DNA of 35,774 nt from Akkermansiaceae bacterium. Its GTDB lineage: Bacteria; Verrucomicrobiota; Verrucomicrobiia; Verrucomicrobiales; Akkermansiaceae. The DNA lies in assembly GCA_028822935.1 (NCBI GenBank), contig JAPKCM010000042.1, positions 1 to 35,774 of the forward strand. The letters are read 5' to 3'. The notes under the pieces are model-generated. The model ran no database searches. It saw only the letters and a program-made list of their open reading frames with translations, and had not been told where the DNA came from. Below are positions 4,801 to 34,429 of the stretch, one piece after another (the first letter of the stretch is position 1; every line of letters begins with the position of its first letter). A program made the position numbers and the translations under genes.

Positions 4801-7800
4801 ATGTCATCTTACTTTAAATCTCTCCTCATTTCGATGGCGCTCGTCCTATTCTCCGGCTCCGCGATTGCCGAGCTGATTGCCCACTGGCCCCTCGATGGCA
4901 ATGCCGACGACGCCCTTGGCAATCACAACGGCTCGGCCTCATCAGTCGTCTACGGCGCAGACGGCGCAGCGGCCCATACCGGCACGGCGGCAGAGTTTAA
5001 CGGATCGAATTCCACCATCACTGTTCCCTTCAGCTCCGATCTCAATCCCGACAGCTTCACCCTCTCGATGTGGGCCAATGCCGACAGCACCAGCGGCTTC
5101 GCCTCCGCGGTAACGAGCCGCGATGACGTGGCCGGTCCAATTACCCATGGCTACATCATCTACAATAACAGCGGCGGGAATTGGGATTTCTGGACAGGGG
5201 ATGGAGACGCAGGCTGGGATAGCCTGGCAGGACCTGCAGTCGCGACAGGCAACTGGACCCACTTGGCCATCACATACGATGCCGCAACAGACACCAAATC
5301 TCTTTGGGTCAATGGCGCTCTGGCGGTCTCCGACAATACCCCTCAATCCGGACCCACCCAATACGCACCAAACGGCACTATTGAGTCCGAAAATCTCAAC
5401 ATCGGCTCAGGCGCTGACAATGGCTCCCAGTTTTACTTTGATGGACTCATCGACGATGTCGCTCTTTGGGACAACGTTCTCTCCTTGGCCGAAATCCAGG
5501 ATGTCATGAATAACGGCGTCCCGGGGGGACCTCCATCGGTGAGTTCCCTCACCGCCAGTCCCCCCTTCGTCGATTCTGGTCAAAGCACGACCCTTTCCTG
5601 GGTGACCAACGATGCCACTTTGGTAAACATTTCATCTCTCGCCGGAAACTTCCCCGCCGCTGGAAGTGTCGTCGTTTCCCCGACCGCGACAACAACCTAC
5701 ACTCTCACTGCCACTGGCGATTCCCCTCCGGTTGCGATCAGCCAGATCACGGTGGGAGTCGATGTCGAATCACTCGACCCGATTATCACCGAATTCCTGG
5801 CCGACAACGAAACGGGACTCACTGACTCCGATGGCGACTTTTCCGACTGGATTGAAATTCACAACCCCAATCCTTTTGCCATCGAGATCGGCGGATGGCA
5901 TCTCAGCGACGATCCGCTCGACCCACAAAAATACAGCATTCCCTCGCAGCAAATCAATACCGGAGGCTACCTCATCCTCTTCGCCTCCGACAAGCAGGGC
6001 GCGGTCAACTTCCTCCTCAGCAAAAGCGGCGACTACCTCGCACTCAGCGATCCCGAGGGGAACATCACCCAAGAGTTCTCACCTTCTTACCCCGCACAAT
6101 TCGACGACGTTTCTTACGGCAAGAGCAACGATGGCAGCACGACTTATCTCGTCCCGACTCCCGGCAACATCAATGGGCCGTCTCGCAGCGAACTGGGCCC
6201 CGATATTGCTTCAGCCACTCATGATCCAACCACTCCCGGAGAAAATGACGACCTTATCATTTCTGCCGAAATTCCCCCGCGAATCGGTGCCATTTCCGGA
6301 GCAACCCTGTTCTATCGCATCGGCTTCGGAGCAGAACAATCGATCTCGATGACCGCCGGAGCAGGTGATTCTTTCACTACCATCATCCCCTCCTCCGCCT
6401 ATGGCGCAGACGATATGGTTCGCTGGTATTTCACCGCAACGACCGCCACCGGAGAAACCACCCGTGCGCCCGCTTTCTCCGATCCGCTTGAATCAGCACG
6501 GTATTTTGGGACCGTCATCAGCGATCCCGCGATCTCCGTCGATCAACCGGTGATGCACTGGTTTGTCGAAAGTCCCGGAGCAGCCGACACTCGAGGCGGC
6601 ACGCGCGGCTCGCTTTATTTCGAAGGGCAATTCTACGATAACATTTTCTGTCGCATCCGTGGTCAAAGCACCGCCAACTGGCCGAAACACAAATACAAAT
6701 TCGATTTCTATCGCGGAGGCCATTTTAAGTGGGATCCCAACCTTCCCCGCGTGGAAGAAATCAACGTCAACTCGCATTATCGCGATTCCTACGTTCGCGA
6801 AAACACCATCTTCGCTTTCCTCAACGAAGCTGGAGCCCTCGCTCCGGACACTCGCTATCTCTGGATTCGCCGCAACGGAAGCGACCTCGGCCTCTTCACC
6901 TTCGTCGAGCAGGTCGACGAAGATTTCCTCACTCGCCGGGGCATCGATGCCACCGGATCAATGTATAAAGGAATCAACGTTCCCGCGACCCTTTCGCCAA
7001 CCGTGAACTCCAGTCTCTATCGTAAAGTTCTCCGTAAAACCGAGCCTTACACCGACCTCAGCAATCTCACCGCGAACATCAACATCTCGAATCCAGATCG
7101 CTTCGACTACGTCGCGGACGAAGTCAATCTCCCGAACTACATCAACGTGATGGCGGCAATGTGCGTTCCCTTTAATCACGATCAACTGACAAAAAACTAC
7201 TACGTCTATCACGATCTCGATCGCGGGGAATGGTTCCGAATTGCCTGGGATGGCGACCAGGGCCTCCCTACCGGAACTAAAAACACGGCAGAAAACTGGG
7301 CCAGCCCGCTCTATGGCGACGCGCGCCACACCCAAGAGCTTCAAGGTGGCAACCCGAATCCCAATTGGCAAAACCACCTCCACGCCGCCATCCTTGACAA
7401 CCCGGTGACGCGACAAATGTACATGCGCCGGGTTCGCACTTTGATGGACCAATACCTCGCTATCCCCGAGGCAGGCCCATCAACGACCATCCTCGCGGAA
7501 GGAGCCATCGCAAGCTACCTCGTGCCCCTCGACAACTCTCTTGAGTCCACCTGGTTTACTACCACCTTCGATGACTCCGCATGGCTCACCGGACAGTCGG
7601 CCTTTGGATACGAAAACACCCCGGACGACTATGAAGATTTACTCGAAACAGTCGTCAGACCCACCGACACCGTTGCTGGCGCGACTTCCATTTATTTACG
7701 CTACCACTTTGAAGTAGTCGATCCAGCGCAGTTCCAAAACCTCATTCTACGCATGCGCTACGATGATGGATTTACGGCCTATATAAATGGCGCTCTGGTA

Positions 7801-9342
7801 GAACAACAAAACATCACAGGCACCGTAGAATACAATTCCACGGCCAGTTCTCACTCCGATTCCCTCGCCGTCGATTTCGCCGACTTCCCTCTCGCTGGAG
7901 TGACTCTCAATGCCGGAACCAACGTTCTGGCCATTCAGATCATCAACCAATCAACAGGCAGCAGCGATCTTATTTGCGAACCCGGTTTGATTGATCAACC
8001 GGGTGCTTCCGGAGGATACTTTGAAAACATCCTCGGAGGATTTCGAAACACCATCGCAAATGATGTCGTCGTCGATCAAGCACTCTGGGCCGGAGCTGGA
8101 ATTACCAATTTTAACAGTGGCTACAATGGCGTGATCAACACCTCTCTGCCAAGCCGACGGATCGCTCTCTTCGACACCTACGGTCCAAGCGGTTCCGGCC
8201 TCATCCCCGATCCGCAGCCATCGGACGCTGTCGTTAATTTTGGTCAGATCGACACCAATCCCGCTTCTGGCAACCAAGACGAAGAATTCATCGAACTCGC
8301 CAACCCGAATAGCTACGCCGTCGATATGTCCGCTTGGACTGTCAGCGGAGGAGTCGACTTCACTCTTCCTCCCGGAACGGTCGTTCCCGGAAACGGCAGT
8401 ATCTACCTCTCTCCAAATGTTCGCGACTTCCGCTTGCGCAGTGCGAGCCCGACCAGAGGTGAAGGAAACATTGTCGTCGGACACTATCAGGGTCATCTCT
8501 CCAACTTCTCCGAAACGCTCACCTTGTCTGACGCCTCCGGCACCATGATTGCCCAGACCACCACTCCGAACATGCCCAGCGACGCCCAGCAGTTTCTCGT
8601 CATCAGCGAAATCATGTATCACCCGGCCGATGGTGCGGGTATCGAATTCATCGAACTCTTCAATATAAGTGATAGCGTGACCCTCAACTTAGAAGGAGTA
8701 GCATTCACTCGTGGCATTAATTACATTTTCCCTGCTGGCACAATACTTGCTCCCGGGAATTACCTCATGATCGACGCTCTCGACTTCGCCAATGGCACTG
8801 CCCTTGAAAATGGCGGCGAGACATTAAAGCTCGAGGACTCTTCGAGCGGAACGATCAAGGAATTCCGCTACGAAGACGAATCGCCGTGGCCGCTGGACTC
8901 CGACGGTAACGGCCCCAGCCTGATCCTAATCAATCCTATTTTAAATCCCGATCCCAGCCTGGCCTCCAACTGGCGCCCCAGCGCGGAAAACGGCGGCAAT
9001 CCTAACAAAACCGACGCCACCACCTTCAGCGGTAACCCGAATGGCGATGCCAACCAAAACGGCCTGCCCGACCTCATCGATTACGCGCTCGGCGACGGAG
9101 GAATCACGACGTTGACTCCAGACTCACTCATTTTCCAACGCCCTATCGGAACAGACGACGTCAATTTGATCATCGAATCATCCACCGATCTCTCAACCTG
9201 GAGCGATGCGAGCCCCTTCCTCGAAAATCGACAAGCCACCTATCCCGGCGGTGGATTTGAGCGGATCGAATACTTCCTTTCTCCCGCAGCTCGTACCCAA
9301 AAGTGGTTTATCCGCATTCGAGCGGAAATAATTATTCTTTAG
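4801..9342 (+). CDS. secreted LamG-LTD-CotH multidomain protein
   Basis: The 1513-residue protein begins with a signal peptide (SLLISMALVLFSGSAIA). Approximate domains are: LamG/concanavalin-like 24-238; an Ig-like linker 241-318; first LTD 325-460; a beta-domain 466-560; CotH kinase-like 578-890 with a WDGDQG motif near 816; a beta-sandwich 892-1066; the CotH helical tail resuming 1068-1125; second LTD 1144-1250; third LTD (ISEIMYHPA) 1267-1390; and the C-terminal SSTDLSTW...FIRI module. CotH proteins are atypical kinases known from spore coats and effectors. In Verrucomicrobiota and Planctomycetota they occur in secreted giants of unknown substrate. It heads a co-directional run of three LamG genes and shares an AATAGCGCT upstream motif (4763-4771) with the third. 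Confidence 0.9.
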   Translation: MSSYFKSLLISMALVLFSGSAIAELIAHWPLDGNADDALGNHNGSASSVVYGADGAAAHTGTAAEFNGSNSTITVPFSSDLNPDSFTLSMWANADSTSGFASAVTSRDDVAGPITHGYIIYNNSGGNWDFWTGDGDAGWDSLAGPAVATGNWTHLAITYDAATDTKSLWVNGALAVSDNTPQSGPTQYAPNGTIESENLNIGSGADNGSQFYFDGLIDDVALWDNVLSLAEIQDVMNNGVPGGPPSVSSLTASPPFVDSGQSTTLSWVTNDATLVNISSLAGNFPAAGSVVVSPTATTTYTLTATGDSPPVAISQITVGVDVESLDPIITEFLADNETGLTDSDGDFSDWIEIHNPNPFAIEIGGWHLSDDPLDPQKYSIPSQQINTGGYLILFASDKQGAVNFLLSKSGDYLALSDPEGNITQEFSPSYPAQFDDVSYGKSNDGSTTYLVPTPGNINGPSRSELGPDIASATHDPTTPGENDDLIISAEIPPRIGAISGATLFYRIGFGAEQSISMTAGAGDSFTTIIPSSAYGADDMVRWYFTATTATGETTRAPAFSDPLESARYFGTVISDPAISVDQPVMHWFVESPGAADTRGGTRGSLYFEGQFYDNIFCRIRGQSTANWPKHKYKFDFYRGGHFKWDPNLPRVEEINVNSHYRDSYVRENTIFAFLNEAGALAPDTRYLWIRRNGSDLGLFTFVEQVDEDFLTRRGIDATGSMYKGINVPATLSPTVNSSLYRKVLRKTEPYTDLSNLTANINISNPDRFDYVADEVNLPNYINVMAAMCVPFNHDQLTKNYYVYHDLDRGEWFRIAWDGDQGLPTGTKNTAENWASPLYGDARHTQELQGGNPNPNWQNHLHAAILDNPVTRQMYMRRVRTLMDQYLAIPEAGPSTTILAEGAIASYLVPLDNSLESTWFTTTFDDSAWLTGQSAFGYENTPDDYEDLLETVVRPTDTVAGATSIYLRYHFEVVDPAQFQNLILRMRYDDGFTAYINGALVEQQNITGTVEYNSTASSHSDSLAVDFADFPLAGVTLNAGTNVLAIQIINQSTGSSDLICEPGLIDQPGASGGYFENILGGFRNTIANDVVVDQALWAGAGITNFNSGYNGVINTSLPSRRIALFDTYGPSGSGLIPDPQPSDAVVNFGQIDTNPASGNQDEEFIELANPNSYAVDMSAWTVSGGVDFTLPPGTVVPGNGSIYLSPNVRDFRLRSASPTRGEGNIVVGHYQGHLSNFSETLTLSDASGTMIAQTTTPNMPSDAQQFLVISEIMYHPADGAGIEFIELFNISDSVTLNLEGVAFTRGINYIFPAGTILAPGNYLMIDALDFANGTALENGGETLKLEDSSSGTIKEFRYEDESPWPLDSDGNGPSLILINPILNPDPSLASNWRPSAENGGNPNKTDATTFSGNPNGDANQNGLPDLIDYALGDGGITTLTPDSLIFQRPIGTDDVNLIIESSTDLSTWSDASPFLENRQATYPGGGFERIEYFLSPAARTQKWFIRIRAEIIIL

Positions 9343-9402: not shown

Positions 9403-11643
9403 ATGAAATATCTCCACACTCTTCTTCTGAGCTGCCTGGCTGCATCCAGTGTCCAGGCTGATCTCATCGCCCACTGGCCGCTCGATACCGATGCCAGCGA
9501 TGCCACAGGTAATAGCCACAACGGCACCGTCGTTGATGGCGCTGTTAATTTTGGACAACCCGGAGCCAATGCTAATACCGGCACGGCAGCAGCCTTTCCC
9601 GACAATGGCCACATCGATGTCTCCTTCGATACCGCTCTCAATGGCGAAAGCTTCACCGTCACCCTCTGGGCCAATGCTGCCAGCACTGGGGGATTTGCCT
9701 CACCCATCACGAGCCGGGACGACGCGCCTGGAGCGCTCACTCACGGCTATATCCTCTATAACAATAACGCCGGAAATTGGGATTTCTGGACGGGAGACGG
9801 GGACGCTGGCTGGGATGGCTTGCCTGGTCCCGCCGTCGCCGTAAGCACCTGGACCCACCTCGCGATCACTTATGACACCGACACCGACACCAAGACCCTC
9901 TGGATCGATGGCGTCTCCTCGGCAACCGATAACGTGCCACAATCCGGTCCAACCCAATATGCGCTAAACGGAACCATTGAGATGGAAAATCTCCATATCG
10001 GGGCCGGACAAGACGACGGCCTCAATTTCTACTTCGACGGTCTCATCGACGATGTTGGAGTCTGGAATGAAGCTCTCGATGGCGCGGCCATCCAGAGTAT
10101 CATGGCCAATGGTATCAGCAGCGAACGTGCCGATCCCGGCCTCTCAGCGGCCAATCCTCTCGACCTAACCCTCGATGGAACAGTGCAGAGCTTTAACGTC
10201 CCCATTACAAACAGCGGGCAGACCCAAAGTCTCACCGTGTCAGCATCGACCTTTAACGGTGATGCCAATTTTTCCGTCACTACCCTGCCAGGAGAGATTT
10301 CACCGGGAGGCAGTGATAATCTCGTCATCAGCTTCGATCCATTGGGTGCCAACGGGGCGTTCTCCGCAGATCTTGAAATTACCAGCAACGACTCGCTGAG
10401 CCCGATCCGAACCATCACGTTGCAGGGAAGCATTCACGATCCCATACTCGTCACCGACGACACTGTCGATCTGGGCGAAAACACCACCGGAACAATCACC
10501 CTCACCAACGATGGAGCCACGCGTCCTCTGCAAGTCTCCGGCGTCGATATCGTTGGAGATACCGATCATTTTGATTTCACCTCAATTCCAAGTATCATCG
10601 CTGCCAATGGCGGAACCGATGACATCGACATTTCTTTTGATGCCTTGGGCCTCGAAGGTGCTTTCAGCGTCACCCTGACTTTTAATACCGATGACCCGAT
10701 CAACCCTGCCATCATTGTCGTCGTCAATGCCGAAGCTCCTTTCAGCGAAATACTCGTCGCCTGGTGGCCTCTCGATATTGATGGCACCGACGCCAGCGGT
10801 AATGGCTTCGATGGCACCGTTGTTGGAAGCCCCATCGCCAGCGCCGGTGCAAATGGCGCCACCAGCGGCTCACTTGACTTCGATGGTTCCACGCGAATCG
10901 ATGTCCCTTTTGATTCCGCTTTAAACCCCGAGAGCTTTTCCATCACTCTTTGGGCCAATGCCGACACCACTGCCGGTTTTGCTTCGCCCATCACCAGCCG
11001 GGACGATGTCGCTGGTCCACTCACTCACGGATACATCATCTATAACGACAACGGCGGAAACTGGAATTTCTGGACCGGAGACAGCGATAACGGTTGGGAT
11101 ACTTTGCTGGGAGATCCGGTCGCTCCCAGCACCTGGAGTCACCTTGCCATCACCTATGATGCGGGAACCGACACCAAGAGCCTTTGGATCGACGGAGTGC
11201 TCTCGGCTTCTGACGACGTTCCCCAATCCGGACCCACCCAGTATTCACCCAACGGCACACTCGAAAGCGAAGATCTGCACATTGGTGCAGGTCAGGATGA
11301 TGGAAACAACTTCTGGTTTGATGGTAAGATCGACGACGTTGGCCTCTTCCGGGTCGCTCTATCCGAGGAAGACATCGCCTCAATCATGGTCAATGGCATC
11401 GCAGGTTTCTCCGGCGTTTCACAGTCTCCTGAGATCACCGACCTCGACCCGGCAAATGGCAATGTCACCATCACCTTCAATTCCATCAACGGTGCAGTAT
11501 ATGTCATCGAACGCTCCACCGATCTTGAAAGTTGGTTTGAGCTTACCGATGACCATGATAGCGTCGGGACTTCGACGACTTTCATCGACAGCACTGTGCC
11601 TCCCGGAACGACAAAGATATTCTACCGCGTCACCCGGCTTTAA
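9403..11643 (+). CDS. secreted double-LamG protein with ASPM/HYDIN-like repeats
   Basis: This 746-residue protein has a signal peptide (LLLSCLAASSVQA). A first LamG domain spans about 22-240. Two choice-of-anchor-D/ASH (HYDIN-like) beta modules follow at about 250-440, recognisable by NVPITNSGQ and VISFDPLGANGAFSADLEI. A second LamG domain spans about 450-665. The C-terminal module has YVIERSTDLESWFEL and ends FYRVTRL. LamG domains usually bind polysaccharide or protein outside the cell, but the target is unknown. The gene starts 60 bp after the CotH gene and ends 74 bp before the PEP-CTERM LamG gene, so the three may be co-transcribed. Both of its LamG copies share long exact DNA stretches with the downstream gene. 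Confidence 0.9.
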   Translation: MKYLHTLLLSCLAASSVQADLIAHWPLDTDASDATGNSHNGTVVDGAVNFGQPGANANTGTAAAFPDNGHIDVSFDTALNGESFTVTLWANAASTGGFASPITSRDDAPGALTHGYILYNNNAGNWDFWTGDGDAGWDGLPGPAVAVSTWTHLAITYDTDTDTKTLWIDGVSSATDNVPQSGPTQYALNGTIEMENLHIGAGQDDGLNFYFDGLIDDVGVWNEALDGAAIQSIMANGISSERADPGLSAANPLDLTLDGTVQSFNVPITNSGQTQSLTVSASTFNGDANFSVTTLPGEISPGGSDNLVISFDPLGANGAFSADLEITSNDSLSPIRTITLQGSIHDPILVTDDTVDLGENTTGTITLTNDGATRPLQVSGVDIVGDTDHFDFTSIPSIIAANGGTDDIDISFDALGLEGAFSVTLTFNTDDPINPAIIVVVNAEAPFSEILVAWWPLDIDGTDASGNGFDGTVVGSPIASAGANGATSGSLDFDGSTRIDVPFDSALNPESFSITLWANADTTAGFASPITSRDDVAGPLTHGYIIYNDNGGNWNFWTGDSDNGWDTLLGDPVAPSTWSHLAITYDAGTDTKSLWIDGVLSASDDVPQSGPTQYSPNGTLESEDLHIGAGQDDGNNFWFDGKIDDVGLFRVALSEEDIASIMVNGIAGFSGVSQSPEITDLDPANGNVTITFNSINGAVYVIERSTDLESWFELTDDHDSVGTSTTFIDSTVPPGTTKIFYRVTRL

Positions 11644-11717
11644 TCCAAATTCGAGCGACCTCACCCAAAAACATCATTAACTAACCAACCAAATAGCGCT
11701 AATCAACACATAGTATT

Positions 11718-12503
11718 ATGAAAAAACAACTCCTTGTCATTTCGACATTAAGCCTGGCCATTCCATCTCTTTCAATGGGAGCGATGGTGGCATGGTATCC
11801 CCTCGATGCCAACGCATCCGATGCCAGCGGCAATGGCCACGACGGCTCTATCGTCGGCGGAACAGTCAACTTCGGTCAAAGCGGCGCCAATGGCTCCACC
11901 GGAAGCTCCGCAAACTTCCCTGATAACGGTCACATTGATGTCCCCTTTAGCACCGCTCTCAACCCTGGCAGCTTTACCGTGACGCTTTGGGCCAATGCTG
12001 GCAGCACCGGCGGATTTGCCTCTCCCCTCACGAGCCGGGACGACGTCGCCGGCCCACTCACTCACGGCTATATCCTCTATAACAATAACGCCGGAAATTG
12101 GGATTTCTGGACGGGAGACGGGGATAGCGGTTGGGATAGTATGGCAGGAGGAGCAGTCTCCACTAACACTTGGAGTCACCTTGCGATCACCTACGACGCT
12201 GGAACCGACTCCAAGAGCCTTTGGATCGACGGAGTGCTCTCGGCTTCTGACAACGTTCCCCAATCAGGACCCACCCAGTATTCACCCAACGGCACGCTCG
12301 AATCCGAAAACCTCCACATCGGATCCGGACAGGATGACGGAAACAACTTCTTCTTCAATGGTAACATTGATGACGTCACCATTTGGGACGAAGCTCTCGA
12401 CGGAGCCGCCATTCAAAACATTATGAATAACAGCATCCCCGAGCCGACTTCGCTGGGACTTCTCAGCCTCGCTGGCCTCGCGCTCTTGCGCCGCCGACGT
12501 TAG
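11718..12503 (+). CDS. LamG-domain protein with PEP-CTERM sorting signal
   Basis: A 261-residue protein with a signal peptide (MKKQLLVISTLSLAIPSLSMG), one LamG domain (about 22-235) and a textbook PEP-CTERM tail: PEP, a hydrophobic stretch (GLLSLAGLALL) and RRRR. PEP-CTERM proteins are processed and surface-anchored by an exosortase (EpsH/XrtA family), none of which is in this window. The LamG domain appears mosaic: its 5' half is nearly identical to the first LamG of the preceding gene, and its 3' half to the second. The gene is followed at once by a strong intrinsic terminator, which probably ends the three-gene LamG unit. Confidence 0.92.
   Translation: MKKQLLVISTLSLAIPSLSMGAMVAWYPLDANASDASGNGHDGSIVGGTVNFGQSGANGSTGSSANFPDNGHIDVPFSTALNPGSFTVTLWANAGSTGGFASPLTSRDDVAGPLTHGYILYNNNAGNWDFWTGDGDSGWDSMAGGAVSTNTWSHLAITYDAGTDSKSLWIDGVLSASDNVPQSGPTQYSPNGTLESENLHIGSGQDDGNNFFFNGNIDDVTIWDEALDGAAIQNIMNNSIPEPTSLGLLSLAGLALLRRRR
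12057..12124 (+). repeat. 68-bp exact repeat shared between LamG copies (partner 9736-9803)
   Basis: These 68 bases are identical to 9736-9803 in the first LamG domain of the preceding gene. They encode the core around GYILYNNNAGNWDFWTGDG. The flanks diverge quickly, which favours recent gene conversion over a uniform old duplication. Confidence 0.9.
12211..12251 (+). repeat. 41-bp exact repeat shared with the second LamG copy (partner 11174-11214)
   Basis: These 41 bases are identical to 11174-11214 in the second LamG domain of the preceding gene, encoding KSLWIDGVLSASD. The following roughly 50 bases are also nearly identical. The donor differs from that of the 68-bp repeat at 12057-12124. 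Confidence 0.9.
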
Positions 12504-24627: not shown

Positions 24628-25747
24628 ATGGCAAACGAATCTATCGCTGACCTCCTGGCGGTCGACACCCAGTCCTTGCAGGACCGGGTCTCTGAACTCA
24701 GGAGGTATCTTTGACCTTCCCACTCTCGAAGCCGAGCTTGCGGAGCTTGAAGCAGCAGCAGTCGAGCCCGAATTCTGGAACGATCAGGAGAAGGCTCGTA
24801 AGGTCCTTTCCGAAACAAAGAATCGGAAGGATAAGGTAGTTCCCTTCCTTAAACTGGAGTCAGACATCGAAAACCTCCTCGCGAACATCGAGCTCGCTAA
24901 AGAATTCGATGACCTCGATTCCGCAAAGGAAGCCAACGCCGGGCACGCGAAGCTCGCCACCGACATCGAAAAATTTGAGGTCATCACCCTTCTCCATGGC
25001 GCCTCGGATATCAGCAATGCCTACGTCATTATCCAAGCCGGAGCAGGCGGAGCGGAGGCTTGCGACTGGGCCGGAATGCTTCTCAGAATGTATCAGCGCT
25101 GGGCGGAAAATCGCGGATTCACCGTGACCACCACCGATTATCAAGAAGCCGATGAAGCAGGGATTTCCTCCGCTTCGATCAAGATCGAGGGCGACTACGC
25201 CTATGGTTATCTCAAGGCCGAGCGCGGAGTCCATCGACTTGTGCGCATCTCGCCATTCGACTCAGCTGGAAAACGGCACACCTCATTTGCCTCGCTGGAT
25301 GTCACCCCGGAAATCGATGACAGCATCGTGATCGAGATTCCCGACTCAGACGTCGAGATCACCACCGCCCGTTCGGGCGGAGCCGGGGGCCAAAACGTGA
25401 ACAAGGTCGAGACTGCGGTCATTATGAAGCACCTCCCTACCGGGATCATGATTCGCTCCACACAAGAGCGCTCTCAGCTCCGGAACCGCGAGATGGCGTG
25501 GGAAACCCTGCGTGCGAAACTTTACCAGATCGAGGAAGACAAACAAAAGGCCGAGGCCGACCGTGAGTATTCCGAAAAAGGCGAAATCGGCTGGGGAAGC
25601 CAAATCCGCTCCTACGTTTTCCAACCTTATCAAATGGTAAAGGATCTCCGCACCGGCCACGAAACCGGCAACATCCAGGCCGTCATGGATGGCGATATCG
25701 ATGGCTTCATCGAGGCCATGCTTCGGGGCGAGAAAAAGAAAAAGTAA
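24628..25747 (+). CDS. prfB: peptide chain release factor 2, with programmed +1 frameshift
   Basis: RF2 releases finished proteins at UAA and UGA codons. The true start is the ATG at 24628 ([15 protein letters not shown]). That frame runs 28 codons to an in-frame TGA at 24712-24714. A +1 shift on CTT leads into the long frame ([13 protein letters not shown] onward), giving about 372 residues, normal for RF2. The catalytic GGQ is in [16 protein letters not shown]. The RF2 frameshift is the classic autoregulatory switch: low RF2 favours slipping past UGA and making more RF2. A continuous-frame call starting at 24590 gives a wrong N-terminus. Competition with UGA decoding matters here because of the selenoprotein candidates. 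Confidence 0.96.
24700..24715 (+). promoter_or_regulatory. RF2 programmed frameshift site
   Basis: The bases read AGGAGGTATCTTTGAC. This is an internal Shine-Dalgarno-like AGGAGG, a 3-base spacer, the slippery CTT, then TGA followed by C, the classic prfB recoding signal. The P-site Leu tRNA re-pairs on TTT and translation resumes at GAC (24713). Confidence 0.95.
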
Positions 25748-27606: not shown

Positions 27607-28443
27607 CTACCACTTTAACTTCCTCCTCAGCGTGTCGTAAAACGAGTGCCCCGGAAGTCGCACCAAGTTCAGGCAATGCGGATGCTTTGTCACCCGCACC
27701 ATGCTGCCCTTATCGATTCGTAAAATATCACGACCATCGGCCGAAAAGAGAATCGGTTCGTCGGTCCGACCCGTTGGGGTCAGCTCAATCACCGAATCGT
27801 CGCTGAGGACCAGAGAGCGGTTGCTCATACTATGAGGGCAGATCGGCGTGATCACAAACACCCCCGAGCGAGGCCCAATCAGAGGCCCTCCTGCCGCAAG
27901 CGAATATGCGGTCGATCCGGTCGGTGTCGCCACCAGGAGACCATCGGCGTTGTATTCGTTTAAAAGATCCCCATCGACCCGCGCTTCGAGCGACACCAAC
28001 CGCCCCGTCTCACCACGCATCAAGACCGCTTCATTGAGCGCGATGAATTCGTGGGACTTTCCGCCCTCTTCCGTCATCTCCACCCTGAGCATCGCCCGCT
28101 CGACGATCTCCTGTTTTCCAACCGCGATCACCTTGCTCAGTTGATCGATTTCCTCATCGGTGCATGCCGTAAGAAATCCAAGAGTGCCAATATTGACTCC
28201 GGCAATAGGAATCGCAGTCGGTCCAATTCTGTGAAGAGTCTGAAGTAATGTTCCATCTCCACCAAGGGAGATAACCATGTCCGCATCCTTCCAAAATTTC
28301 TTAATCCCTTTCTCCCCCAGAAGCTCCGCTGTCTCGAATTCGAGCACGACCTCAATATCTCGCGCGACCAGACTTTGGCGAACGCGCGAAACGGCAACCG
28401 GGGCGTCAGGCTTCTTAGGATGTGCAACGATGGCAACTCTCAC
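27607..28443 (-). CDS. nadK: NAD kinase
   Basis: NAD kinase phosphorylates NAD to NADP using ATP or polyphosphate, in the cytosol. The signature GGDGTLLQTLHRI is present, followed by GVNIGTLGFLTAC, the LNEAVL segment, the catalytic-region motif NADGLLVATPTGSTAYSLAAGGPL, and ITPICPHSMSNRSLVL. I prefer the GTG start at 28443 (MRVAIVAHPKK), which fits family N-termini. A TTG two codons further upstream is the alternative. About 278 residues, near the usual 270-300. It is divergent from the MoeB-rhodanese gene, 79 bp between starts. Confidence 0.94.
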   Translation of the reverse strand: MRVAIVAHPKKPDAPVAVSRVRQSLVARDIEVVLEFETAELLGEKGIKKFWKDADMVISLGGDGTLLQTLHRIGPTAIPIAGVNIGTLGFLTACTDEEIDQLSKVIAVGKQEIVERAMLRVEMTEEGGKSHEFIALNEAVLMRGETGRLVSLEARVDGDLLNEYNADGLLVATPTGSTAYSLAAGGPLIGPRSGVFVITPICPHSMSNRSLVLSDDSVIELTPTGRTDEPILFSADGRDILRIDKGSMVRVTKHPHCLNLVRLPGHSFYDTLRRKLKW

Positions 28444-28522
28444 CCCCAATCTCTACCACTTCAATCAGCTCTCGGCAAGCGAGCCGATTGACACTCACCT
28501 CACCAGAGCGCAAACTCCTGCC

Positions 28523-29635
28523 ATGCCGATGACGTCGGAAGAACAAGTTCGCTATTCCCGCCAAACCCTTCTTCAGGAATTCGGAGAGGAAGGGCAGGAG
28601 CGACTCAAAAACTCTGCGGTCCTCTGCATCGGAACTGGAGGGCTCGGCTCCCCCTCTCTCATGTATCTCGCGGCAGCGGGTGTCGGGAAAATAGGCCTCA
28701 TCGATCCCGATGTCGTCGACCTCTCGAATCTCCATCGCCAAATCCTGCATGATAGCGACCGGGTGGGAACACCCAAACTAGAGAGCGCCCGTTCCCGCGT
28801 CGCCGCGATCAACCCTCATGTCGAAATAATCGAGCACCCCGGCTACTTCAACGCCCATAACTGTCTCGCTATCGTCAAGGACTACGACCTCATCCTCGAC
28901 GGATCCGATAATTTCCCCACGCGCTTCTGCGCAAATGACGCGGCCTTTTTCCTCAAAAAACCCGTCATCCATGGCGCGATCTTCCAGTTCGAGGGCCAAG
29001 CAACCGTCTTCGCCCCCCATCTGGGGGGCCCCTGCTATCGTTGTCTCCTTCCAGAACCTCCGCCAGAAGGAGCCGTGCCCACATGAGGAGAAGCAGGTGT
29101 CCTGGGCGTGCTCCCGGGAATCATCGGTTCGCTGCAAGCGATGGAAGCAATCAAACTCCTCGCAGGTTTGGGCTCACCTCCTCTCGGAAGACTCGTCCAT
29201 TATCGAGCGCTCGATACCAGCTTCCGCGAAATCAAAATTAAACCCGACCCTTCCTGCCCCCTCTGCGGATCCTCTCCCACGATCACCGCTCCCGTGGCTT
29301 ACCCTGAAAAATCCTGCGATATGAACAACGGCGGCCTTCCCGAAATCTCCACCCAAGACCTTAAAAACATTCTAGACTCCGGATTCGACGGCATCCTCCT
29401 CGATGTCCGCGAACAAGATGAATTCTTCATGGCCCACATTGATGGCTGCCAGCTCCTTCCCCTCAGCGGCTGGCCGGAGGCCGCGAGCAATCTCCCGAAA
29501 GACGAAACCTACTACGTTCTCTGCGCCGCCGGGATGCGGAGCGCCCGCGCCGGAATGTGGATGCTCGATAATGGCTTCGAAAAAGTCACCAACGTCGCCG
29601 GCGGAATGAAAAGCTGGCAACAAGAGAACCCCTAA
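28523..29635 (+). CDS. MoeB/ThiF-type adenylyltransferase fused to rhodanese, probable selenoprotein (in-frame UGA at residue 188)
   Basis: Read through the TGA at 29084-29086, this is a 370-residue MoeB/ThiF-rhodanese fusion like MOCS3/Uba4 and MoeZ. It activates the C-terminus of a sulfur-carrier protein with ATP for sulfur transfer (molybdopterin, thiamine, cysteine or tRNA thiolation; which one is not shown). Seen in order: GTGGLGSPSLMYLAAAG for ATP binding, DVVDLSNLHRQ, DGSDNFPTRF, zinc pair CYRC, then GAVPT-UGA-GEAGVLGVLPG, IIGSLQAMEAIKLL, zinc pair CPLC, and a rhodanese domain from about 272 with active Cys334 (VLCAAGMRSARA). The UGA replaces the conserved Cys (MoeB Cys187, MOCS3 Cys239, ThiF Cys184). 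ATG 28529 is an alternative start. Gene callers would split it in two. Confidence 0.9.
29084..29119 (+). promoter_or_regulatory. UGA codon plus bacterial SECIS-like hairpin (MoeB-rhodanese gene)
   Basis: Thirteen bases after the TGA, TCCTGGG (29100-29106) pairs with CCCGGGA (29113-29119), with one G-T wobble, around the loop CGTGCT. The loop begins 20 bases after the UGA and its second base is G. These values fit the bacterial SECIS description (16-37 bases to the loop, G among its first two bases). Confidence 0.7.
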
Positions 29636-32103: not shown

Positions 32104-32427
32104 ATGTCCAAAAACTATTCCCGGGCCATTCATGGGTTCCGACGTGGTCTCCGCCTCACCGATAACCGCTGAGCCGACTGTGCGCCGAACTTGGGATCGC
32201 TTTTCATTATTTCAAAGACGCTGCACTCCACGGTCCCGATGAAGTTCTGAAGAGCGACGGCTCCCCCTATCGCGTTTATACCCCCTATTCAAAACCGTGG
32301 CTCTCCTTGCCCCCCGGAAAACGGTCAACCGATTGCTCTCGGTTACGTCGCACCAATTGTCGATCACTTCCATGAACGACTACTAACGCTGGCTCGCTTT
32401 AAAAAGCACCGGGAGGGCCAGCGCTAG
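32104..32427 (+). pseudogene. phr: deoxyribodipyrimidine photolyase relic (three fragments)
   Basis: Three pieces of a DNA photolyase lie in the right order in 324 bp. Piece 1 (32104-32172) is the N-terminus: [14 protein letters not shown], compare WFRrDLRLtDN. Piece 2 (32172-about 32300), in another frame, is from about residue 100: [20 protein letters not shown] and [13 protein letters not shown]. Piece 3 (about 32305-32427), back in the first frame, is the C-terminus: [20 protein letters not shown] and a TAG stop. Photolyases have 450-500 residues and bind FAD with the middle that is missing here. Two large internal deletions explain it. The end overlaps the convergent pseudo-HtrA stop, and contains a 7-bp inverted repeat (32387-32393, 32417-32423). 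Confidence 0.8.
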
Positions 32428-33443
32428 TTCTTCCCATTCGCCTCGGCCTCTTCCATCATCTTGGGAAGAACCTCCAGGAGATTCTCGACCGGAACAGCAT
32501 ATACCTCAACACGATTTACGGCGGCGATATTGAGACCGACGCATTCGCCGTCAAAAGTCAAAAGTGGCCCTCCCACACTGCGACGGGTCAGCTGGGTTTC
32601 ATGCTGGATCACCATCGGAAATCCAGTGCGACGACGAGAAATGTGATTATCGCCTCCACTCATCTGATCGTTCCTGCTTTTCGAGCCCCCGTAGAGTTTG
32701 TAGCGAGAGGTAAGTTCGACATCGAGAGTGAGCGTTTCCTTATCTCGCTTAACAACGAGCTCGATGGAATCCTCTGCTGTCTTCTCTTTGATGAGTTCGA
32801 CAAAATCTTCCCTTTTCTTGGGATCTTGATCGTCGACTTTGATAATCAAGTCCCCTTTCTGAAGCTTCGCTTTCTCCGCTCCCGATCCTTCGGTGATCGA
32901 CGTAATGACGATCCCCTCGTCGGTGTCCTTCAACCCCACCCCCAGCACCATCTGGGTTCCTCCGGAAATCGCGCGCTTGTTCGCACTGATGATTCCAGGA
33001 CGCGGTCGACGATACCTTCTTTCCGTCGCACCATTTGATACCACCCAAGTCCCGTGGGCCAAATCACTGGACGGAGCCCAAACAACCGGAGTGAGCTCCG
33101 TGGCTTCCACCTTAACAAGAGCAAGGTCCCAGACAGCATCAATCGCGACAACTTTGAGCTCGCGATACCGTTCCTCATCAATGCGGACATGAAACTCCTC
33201 CACAAGCTCCAGCTCACTCGCTTTCGTTAGAACGTAGCCACTCGGGCTGACCACCGTCCCATAGATAAAGGGCTTCCGGTCCGAGTCATTGTAGAAAACC
33301 GCACTTCCGCTCTGCAGCGACAACTGCACAGGACTAAGCGCATCCTGAACAAGTTTGTTGTTTTTCCGCTGCTCGGAAGGAAGTGAGTTCGCCAAAATTG
33401 GCGATCCCAAAAGGGCGGACAGGAAAAAAATGGTGACTCTCAT
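32424..33443 (-). CDS. inactive HtrA-like protein with PDZ domain nested in the protease fold
   Basis: This 339-residue exported protein (signal MRVTIFFLSALLGSPILA) has an HtrA-type trypsin fold with a degraded active site. The His motif TAAHV is replaced by LTKASEL (residues 72-78). The Asp region WDLALVKV (Asp106) is kept. The Ser motif GNSGGPL is RSVGGPL (residues 288-294), putting Val at the nucleophile. A PDZ domain (about 165-245, LGVGLKDTDEGIVI, LQKGDLIIKVDD) lies between the GIISA strand and the Ser loop, not at the C-terminus. A role as a binding partner or regulator is inferred. Its start overlaps the stop of the active HtrA gene by 4 bp (ATGA), so the two are translationally coupled. 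Confidence 0.82.
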   Translation of the reverse strand: MRVTIFFLSALLGSPILANSLPSEQRKNNKLVQDALSPVQLSLQSGSAVFYNDSDRKPFIYGTVVSPSGYVLTKASELELVEEFHVRIDEERYRELKVVAIDAVWDLALVKVEATELTPVVWAPSSDLAHGTWVVSNGATERRYRRPRPGIISANKRAISGGTQMVLGVGLKDTDEGIVITSITEGSGAEKAKLQKGDLIIKVDDQDPKKREDFVELIKEKTAEDSIELVVKRDKETLTLDVELTSRYKLYGGSKSRNDQMSGGDNHISRRRTGFPMVIQHETQLTRRSVGGPLLTFDGECVGLNIAAVNRVEVYAVPVENLLEVLPKMMEEAEANGKN

Positions 33444-34429
33444 GGGCGTTCAGCGAGTTCGATTTTCTTTTCAAAGACTTCTTCTTGAAAAGACCACCTT
33501 AACAATACGAATCCTTCAACTCCTTTTGTATCAAGAGCTTCGTAAAAACTGTTCTTATCGGCCAGAGCCTTGCCGTCGATCTCCAAAAGAATCGCGCCCA
33601 CCTTAATCCCAGCCCTCTCTGCCACGCTCTTGGAAAAGAGTTCCTTCACTTCGATTTCCCCTTTTTCATTTTCTTCCACCATCACCCCAAGAAACCCGGA
33701 TCCAGGCTCAGGCTTTTTAGCAAAACCACCCTCGCCGAGAAACTCACCCTTCGACATTTCCTCCCAGCCCCGCTGAAACTCGCGAATGGGCACGTGCATG
33801 CTTTCTTCCTTGGAAGCTCCCACTCGGCTGTGAATCGCGATCAGCTTTCCCTCAATATCAAAAAGAGGCCCTCCGGAGTCTCCCCCGATCAGCATGCAGT
33901 CAGACTGCACCGTTGAGTCAGCCTGCCTCACCATCCGGCCGATGCGCACATTAATCCCCCTCTCCTTGTCGAATCCCCCGGAGTGACCGAGAGCAAAGAC
34001 CCAGTCGCCCAACTTAAATGAATCATCCATATCGACCTCCACAAAAGGGAAGGGTCCGGGATCAGTAATCTGCAACATCGCCGCATCAGTCTCCGAGTTA
34101 AGGCCCAGCGACCGGCCCTTCAGCTTTCGGCCATCTTCCAACACCACTGTAATTTCCTTATCAACTCCGCCGCTCACATGAGCTGCCGTAAGCACTAATC
34201 CATCTTCGGAAATGATGACTCCGCTTCCCGAGCCTTCGCCAATTTCCAAACAAACCGTGGCAGCCCGAGTCTTCGGAAGGCTTACTTGTAAGACTTCCTG
34301 GATTTTTTTCAAATCCTCGAGAGATTCGGGCGCTTCCTGGTTATTAAAATAGGGCCGGGCAAGAAGAGGAGAGAGTATGCTCAGAGCAAGGAGCAGGATG
34401 CAATGAGGACGGCAAATCATTTCAATCAA
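33440..34429 (-). CDS. HtrA/DegP-like serine protease with C-terminal PDZ
   Basis: This 329-residue exported protease has an intact catalytic triad: LTAAHVSGG (His84), SETDAAMLQI (Asp115) and GGDSGGPLF (Ser185). One PDZ domain follows (about 245-325, GFLGVMVEEN, AERAGIKVGAILLEIDGKAL). HtrA proteases degrade or refold damaged proteins in the periplasm. The N-terminus has a signal-like segment (ILLLALSILSPLLA) after a short polar start. It is the upstream partner of the inactive homologue, with a 4-bp overlap. The 200 bp before it, to the next gene's end, probably hold its promoter; nothing specific is visible there. Confidence 0.88.
   Translation of the reverse strand: MIEMICRPHCILLLALSILSPLLARPYFNNQEAPESLEDLKKIQEVLQVSLPKTRAATVCLEIGEGSGSGVIISEDGLVLTAAHVSGGVDKEITVVLEDGRKLKGRSLGLNSETDAAMLQITDPGPFPFVEVDMDDSFKLGDWVFALGHSGGFDKERGINVRIGRMVRQADSTVQSDCMLIGGDSGGPLFDIEGKLIAIHSRVGASKEESMHVPIREFQRGWEEMSKGEFLGEGGFAKKPEPGSGFLGVMVEENEKGEIEVKELFSKSVAERAGIKVGAILLEIDGKALADKNSFYEALDTKGVEGFVLLRWSFQEEVFEKKIELAERP

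Follow-up and report, generated by a model that had tools for sequence, protein, structure and literature searches.

The question raised by this locus is whether the TGA that lies within the reading frame of a fused ThiF/MoeB-rhodanese gene is a translated codon and, if so, what selenium would do at that position. The gene is located in a stretch of 35,774 nucleotides (hereafter the window) from an Akkermansiaceae bacterium (GenBank assembly GCA_028822935.1, contig JAPKCM010000042.1, forward strand). An earlier note, made from the letters of the window, had read it as a probable selenoprotein with UGA at the E1-like cysteine. This reading was supported by comparison with related sequences: the in-frame TGA at the Cys position of the E1 crossover loop was confirmed to be real, and it is very probably read as selenocysteine (Sec).

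The whole reading frame runs from 28523 to 29635 on the plus strand and encodes 370 amino acids with the TGA as Sec, followed by a TAA stop. The start codon was placed at 28523, where relatives begin; upstream of it the frame stays open to 28277. In a Pfam scan with Cys substituted for the TGA, a ThiF/MoeB adenylation (E1-like) domain (PF00899, 263.5 bits; residues 11–246, 28553–29260) and a rhodanese domain (PF00581, 56.5 bits; residues 277–368, 29351–29626) were matched in one single frame across the TGA, in the domain order of the MoeZ/MOCS3/Uba4 layout. Both CxxC zinc pairs claimed by the earlier note were found, the first as C171/C174 (29033–29044; each Cys in 53 of 54 aligned rows) and the second, by alignment, as C245/C248 (29255–29266), as was the active Cys of the rhodanese in the same polypeptide (C334, 29522–29524). 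The active-Cys loop of rhodaneses carries the motif CxxGxR; here it reads C334-A-A-G-M-R, with the Cys and the Gly kept in 54/54 rows and the Arg in 53/54. The best NCBIfam matches were PRK08762 (408 bits), PRK07411 (379 bits) and PRK07878 (371 bits), the last two covering the whole fused chain, and the window's protein did not reach the cut-offs of these models (449, 633 and 647, respectively). Of the listed NCBIfam models, that for the MoeB subfamily (PRK05690) was passed (299 vs. a cut-off of 266).

The TGA occupies positions 29084–29086, in frame, as codon 188 of 370, with family sequence on both sides, just as had been described. Position 188 was either a Cys codon or TGA in all 54 aligned rows, and the alignment with MoeB, ThiF and Uba4 was likewise favourable, E. 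coli MoeB (1jw9) and Uba4 (6yub) both having a Cys aligned to this residue. A search for the gene covered 58 genomes from the neighbourhood. Genus g1 comprised 27 genomes including the source genome, and codon 188 was readable in 23 of these: it was TGA in 22 (source genome included) and TGC in one (G010, locus L024). Among the genomes of the genus lacking a readable codon, the contig of G015 stops before codon 188, and G013, G014 and G023 (85, 81, and 61% complete) held a distant paralog only. The same TGA in 22 genomes of the genus means that no base error, a possibility raised at the outset, is involved, and because the TGA persists while protein identity to the window's protein drops to 66% within the genus, decay is disfavoured as well. 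The residue before it also differed between the two forms: in alignment A1, residue 187 was Thr in 24/24 Sec rows, and Ser (22), Asn (4), Thr (3) or Gly (1) in the 30 Cys rows; it was Asp in 11 Sec rows of family f2. Several other candidates were rejected. The TGA codons in second MoeB-like paralogs of G002, G004, G020 and G026 are terminal stop codons, and those in G254 and G663, like the TAG codons in G031 and G289, are end stops, with Cys at the position in each.

A complete set of genes for Sec insertion, the presence of which had been proposed as a check, was found in the source genome (4.59 Mb, 156 contigs, 96% complete). The tRNA-Sec was matched at 53.9 bits (cut-off 47) and was called by ARAGORN as tRNA-SeC with anticodon tca, and selB (278.3 bits vs. 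242.25), selA (485.6 bits vs. 267.9) and selD (386.5 bits vs. 125; L048 1399–2451) all scored above their cut-offs. In 14 control genomes, tRNA-Sec exceeded its cut-off in five, selB and selD in two each, and selA in one; since selA was over the cut-off in the fewest control genomes, it was chosen as the sharpest marker for the co-occurrence test. The selD gene itself holds one in-frame TGA, in the motif ..CGGUASK.., so that selenophosphate synthesis seems to be Sec-dependent in this organism too.

At E ≤ 1e-60, selA was found in 117 of 386 genomes of the order, in 115 of them above the cut-off, and the fusion gene was present in 275 of the 386 at E ≤ 1e-80. A TGA lay inside the match in 42 of these 275, and codon 188 itself was read in 41 of the 42, the exception being G588. 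The 42 genomes belonged to genera g1 (21), g218 (7) and g9 (2) and to family f2 (12), the last group consisting of six genomes of g26 plus G588, three of g228, one of g230 and one of g237. The other 233 genomes with the gene showed no TGA at the place of residue 188, which for most of them was taken from the search report rather than from the codon itself. SelA was present in 39 of the 42 TGA genomes vs. 64 of the 233 others (Fisher test 4e-16, kinship ignored). The TGA genomes without a selA match were G001, G022 and G588 (86, 72, and 59% complete), and in a further TGA genome (G501) the match was partial and under the cut-off. Beyond the order, a draw of 387 genomes from the phylum gave 150 with a match at E ≤ 1e-60; among the matches listed, a TGA inside the match was seen only in the source genome and in G254, where it is the end stop mentioned above. 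In a scan of one genome per species (84,980 species), the best 80 of 573 loci were taken, several of them being the same records as genomes in the other surveys here. Among these best 80, TGA was found in 20 of 79 loci with a readable codon; 19 of the 20 were titled Verrucomicrobia (two of them Roseibacillus) and one 'Bacterium'.

The codons that follow the TGA are constrained beyond the protein they encode. When synonymous codon diversity was compared over 344 ten-codon segments in 20 TGA genes of the genus, the six lowest values all fell on segments starting at codons 188–194; codons 195–197 were GGC GTG CTC in 20/20, and none of 20,000 random codon draws for these genes was as low as codons 191–200. 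In 25 Cys relatives, the segment 191–200 was ordinary (rank 164 of 264, p 0.70), and the TGC congener (L024) has GGG GTC CTG at codons 195–197. The frozen bases build a hairpin, UCCUGGG-CGUGCU-CCCGGGA (29100–29119), which begins 13 bases after the UGA. In bacterial SECIS elements G and U stand near the start of the loop, and the same holds for CGUGCU here. The loop predicted for 43 distinct TGA genes was CGUGCU in 27, CGUGCUU in six and CGUGUUA in one (together 34); nine had another loop, seven of which came from genus g218, where the hairpin is different or absent, or from loci titled Roseibacillus. The fold was hardly more stable than shuffled sequences in the window (z +0.57 over 66 nt, −0.77 over 42 nt), and z ranged from −1.81 to +0.68 in eight other TGA genes. 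Pair counts revealed no compensatory double changes in the hairpin, the RNAalifold consensus chose another weak fold, and Rfam gave no match on the window at gathering scores. Cys genes also fold at this place (97 genes, mean −7.2 kcal/mol, with a GUGCU loop in 14). Because the thermodynamic and covariation evidence is weak, the SECIS reading rests on the synonymous constraint, on which the hairpin is a strong candidate for the SECIS element.

The exchange between Sec and Cys forms appears to have happened repeatedly, as the trees need at least five changes. On the more careful tree, of 55 rows, five Sec/Cys changes were needed, four of which were forced by starred branches; on a quick tree of 71 rows, built after masking the Sec/Cys column and the one next to it, there were again five, all forced by starred branches. 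These are counts of state changes in which gains and losses are not separated. Sec was placed in g1 together with G027 (a join that is an unstarred branch), in g218, in an 11-row clade of f2, and within a Cys clade, in G698; the tree did not include G691.

A second cysteine was found to vary with this state. The linker that joins the second zinc pair to the rhodanese domain carries a Cys that was kept in 69/69 distinct Cys proteins whose linker could be read, one further Cys row having been dropped from the count as it was without the zinc motif; among 39 distinct Sec proteins it was kept in 14 and missing in 25. On the tree, where the linker could be read in 70 rows, 19 of 30 Sec rows lacked this Cys vs. 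0 of 40 Cys rows. Parsimony placed six losses, all on Sec branches and in all three large Sec clades. Sec branches make up 35% of the tree length, so the chance of all six falling on them would be 0.351^6 = 0.0019, a figure derived by parsimony from a single quick tree. An independent-pairs test of linker Cys against Sec was not significant, being underpowered with only five pairs (median p 0.5). The window's own protein retains the residue as Cys265 (29315–29317), which many of its Sec relatives have lost. In many Cys rows it forms a Tyr-x3-Cys motif with a spacing equal to that of Tyr301–Cys305 in Uba4 of Chaetomium (numbering as in PMC7527816), and from this spacing we infer that the linker Cys is homologous to Cys305. 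In the same paper, Uba4 Cys202, the E1 Cys, is described as forming a thioester, as having 'crucial redox communication' with Cys305, and as preventing conjugation of the enzyme by its own product under oxidants. The losses of the linker Cys would be explicable if a selenol at position 188 resolved such states without it.

The genes around the fusion gene offered no partner operon: the next genes lie on the opposite strand, and only nadK is conserved in congeners. This divergent neighbour (27607–28449, minus strand) had an NCBIfam best model for NAD kinase at 233 bits, below the cut-off of 309, and lay next to the E1 gene in 14 of the 16 loci from the genus, and in 33 loci from elsewhere it was not found; it is no part of the mechanism. 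Elsewhere in the window, prfB, encoding release factor 2, was matched at 474 bits vs. a cut-off of 370. At 24628–24715 it has a 28-codon leader frame followed by the classical programmed +1 frameshift site (AGGAGGTATCTTTGAC), which adds another case of UGA recoding to the window. Release factor 2 competes with SelB at UGA. The window also encodes two adjoining proteins with Laminin_G_3 domains (9403–12503), a third large protein with a start resembling theirs (4801–9342), and, on the minus strand, two HtrA-like proteins in tandem that have trypsin-like peptidase and PDZ domains (32424–34429).

An AlphaFold model with Sec modelled as Cys (pLDDT 93, pTM 0.75) predicted an adenylation domain plus a rhodanese. 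Its best PDB match was Uba4 (6yub) over both domains, followed by MoeB-MoaD (1jw9) and ThiS-ThiF (1zud); the rmsd of the 6yub match was 19 over both domains because the domains lie differently, so that the arrangement itself is not matched. Regarding the sulfur-carrier partner, the identity of which had been left to be found, both ThiS- and MoaD-like carriers are present in the source genome. Two ThiS-family matches were obtained, both of them carriers with a C-terminal GG. One is a ThiS ending in AAGG, which adjoins thiH (above cut-off); the other is the C-terminal MoaD, ending in AGG, of a MobA-MoaD fusion of 280 residues (L133 6154–6996), which adjoins a moaE-like gene. The names MobA, MoaD and MoaE are likely but not certain, the models having matched below their cut-offs. 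Two other ThiF-family proteins were found in the genome. A MoeB-like paralog (L135 6150–6884) adjoins modA (above cut-off) in a molybdate ABC transporter cluster and, on inspection by eye, lacks a Cys at the E1 position; the third member is TcdA-like (255 bits, below the cut-off of 304). Of these three proteins, the Sec enzyme alone combines an E1 nucleophile with a fused rhodanese, which makes it the likely activator of ThiS; for MoaD, either this enzyme or the paralog beside modA may take that role.

Taken together, we consider it likely that the gene encodes a selenoprotein in which UGA188, directed by the hairpin, is decoded as Sec by the organism's own SelA, SelB, SelD and tRNA-Sec, and which acts in a Uba4-like relay for ThiS and perhaps MoaD. 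Actual insertion of Sec and the carrier served are inferred, as is the chemistry, which is modelled on work on Uba4 and MOCS3. The ThiF domain would adenylate the C-terminal Gly-Gly of the carrier (ThiS, perhaps MoaD), and Sec188 in the crossover loop would attack the acyl-adenylate to give a selenoester, with direct transfer as the alternative. The persulfide on rhodanese Cys334 would then attack, producing an acyl disulfide with the carrier, and Sec188, whether or not it had formed the selenoester, could resolve this disulfide to release the thiocarboxylate. Sec188 would also shield the site from oxidative side reactions, and with selenium present the linker Cys would become dispensable. In papers on related enzymes, MOCS3 C239 is described as cleaving the acyl disulfide (PMC5372717), and ThiF and MoeB, according to a review, form no thioester (PMC12954526). 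Yeast Uba4 C225S is stated to retain 25% of tRNA thiolation, making the E1 Cys helpful and non-essential (PMC5349211); since the E1 Cys is non-essential there, the gain from Sec may be small. Tentatively, Sec188 might replace the redox pair of E1 Cys and linker Cys of Uba4, freeing the linker Cys, with the selenoester or a Sec188–Cys334 selenosulfide as the resting or resolving state.

The protein could also be a selenoprotein in which Sec is a near-neutral stand-in for Cys, held in place by SECIS lock-in and bringing no new chemistry. At least five swaps between the two forms on the tree, and a TGC congener that still has selA, would fit such drift; residue 187, which varies with the state (Thr or Asp in Sec rows, mostly Ser in Cys rows), and the confinement of linker-Cys loss to Sec branches speak against it, and we regard it as unlikely. 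Quite improbable is a selenium-dependent switch in which UGA is mainly a stop, the 187-residue adenylation fragment (correctly given in the earlier note as the length for termination at the TGA) being the usual product and the full-length protein made only with ample selenium. The TGA does come after most of the adenylation domain, and a GTG start opens a 175-aa frame downstream of it (29108–29635), but the fragment would miss the second zinc pair and the helix past the crossover loop. Moreover, the rhodanese Cys is retained in every one of the 54 rows, and the extra constraint on the codons after the TGA is not needed for termination. That UGA is read as Cys or Trp through a reassigned code or a suppressor tRNA would agree with the aligned residue being Cys, but it is highly implausible in a genome with tRNA-Sec and selA/B/D, with prfB in the window, and with a second MoeB-like gene that, there and in four congeners, stops at TGA or TGA TGA. 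Sequencing error or a decayed gene, in whose favour it might be said that the TGA is a single one, can be dismissed, as 22 genomes of the genus, and other clades besides, have the same codon, and in the full-length genes the frame is intact on both sides of it.

With Sec188 as the preferred reading, the protein joins a known family. The statement in the earlier note on Sec-containing MoeB from marine surveys was correct: 11 sequences were reported from the Sargasso Sea in 2005 (PMC1088965) and 19, under pfam05237, from the GOS in 2008 (PMC2398784), and the family was catalogued again in two reviews, with MBT7809913.1 (PMC9312934; PMC13188914). In the window's protein, UGA takes the place of the E1 Cys of a PF00899 domain, and the published MoeB selenoproteins may use the same Cys; compared with the text passages of those reports, it shares the MoeB/ThiF family, an in-frame UGA paired with the Cys of homologs, a candidate SECIS-like hairpin and a marine source. 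The same passages name no rhodanese domain, host clade, partner carrier or linker Cys, and the 2005 and 2008 sequences may well be the same protein as the one in the window. No E1-rhodanese selenoprotein or verrucomicrobial Sec-MoeB was named in the text passages of the literature searched. Uba4 and MOCS3 share with the window's protein the domain order, the zinc pairs, the position of the crossover-loop Cys, the rhodanese Cys and, by spacing, the linker Cys; unlike them, it has Sec for the E1 Cys, and its likely carriers are ThiS and MoaD rather than Urm1. Sec at the E1 Cys also distinguishes it from the bacterial MoeZ/MoeB-rhodanese proteins (PRK08762, PRK07411, PRK07878). E. coli MoeB and ThiF have a similar adenylation domain (45% identity to 1jw9 and 38% to 1zud in structure alignment), but they carry Cys at the position and are without a fused rhodanese, whereas the window's protein has Sec and a rhodanese.

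Sec-MoeB is already known; the relatives compared here add the history of Sec/Cys exchange and, as the new part, the tendency of linker-Cys loss to go with Sec. The linker pattern was not met in the passages of the literature searched, in a search that was not aimed at the pattern itself. The role of the E1-like Cys in Uba4 and MOCS3 is debated, as it forms a thioester with Urm1, is nevertheless non-essential, and has a redox link to the linker Cys. A clade with a sulfur-to-selenium swap at this residue, in which one congener has Cys and the linker Cys was lost in parallel, constitutes a natural experiment on that role. The genus also allows the constraint downstream of the UGA to be set side by side for the Sec and Cys versions of a single gene, and the enzyme would place selenium into the sulfur transfer of thiamine or molybdenum-cofactor synthesis. 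If the tentative reading holds in which Sec188 replaces the redox pair, a selenium-dependent form of ubiquitin-like activation would have arisen repeatedly among marine Verrucomicrobia, in most cases accompanied by one and the same SECIS loop.
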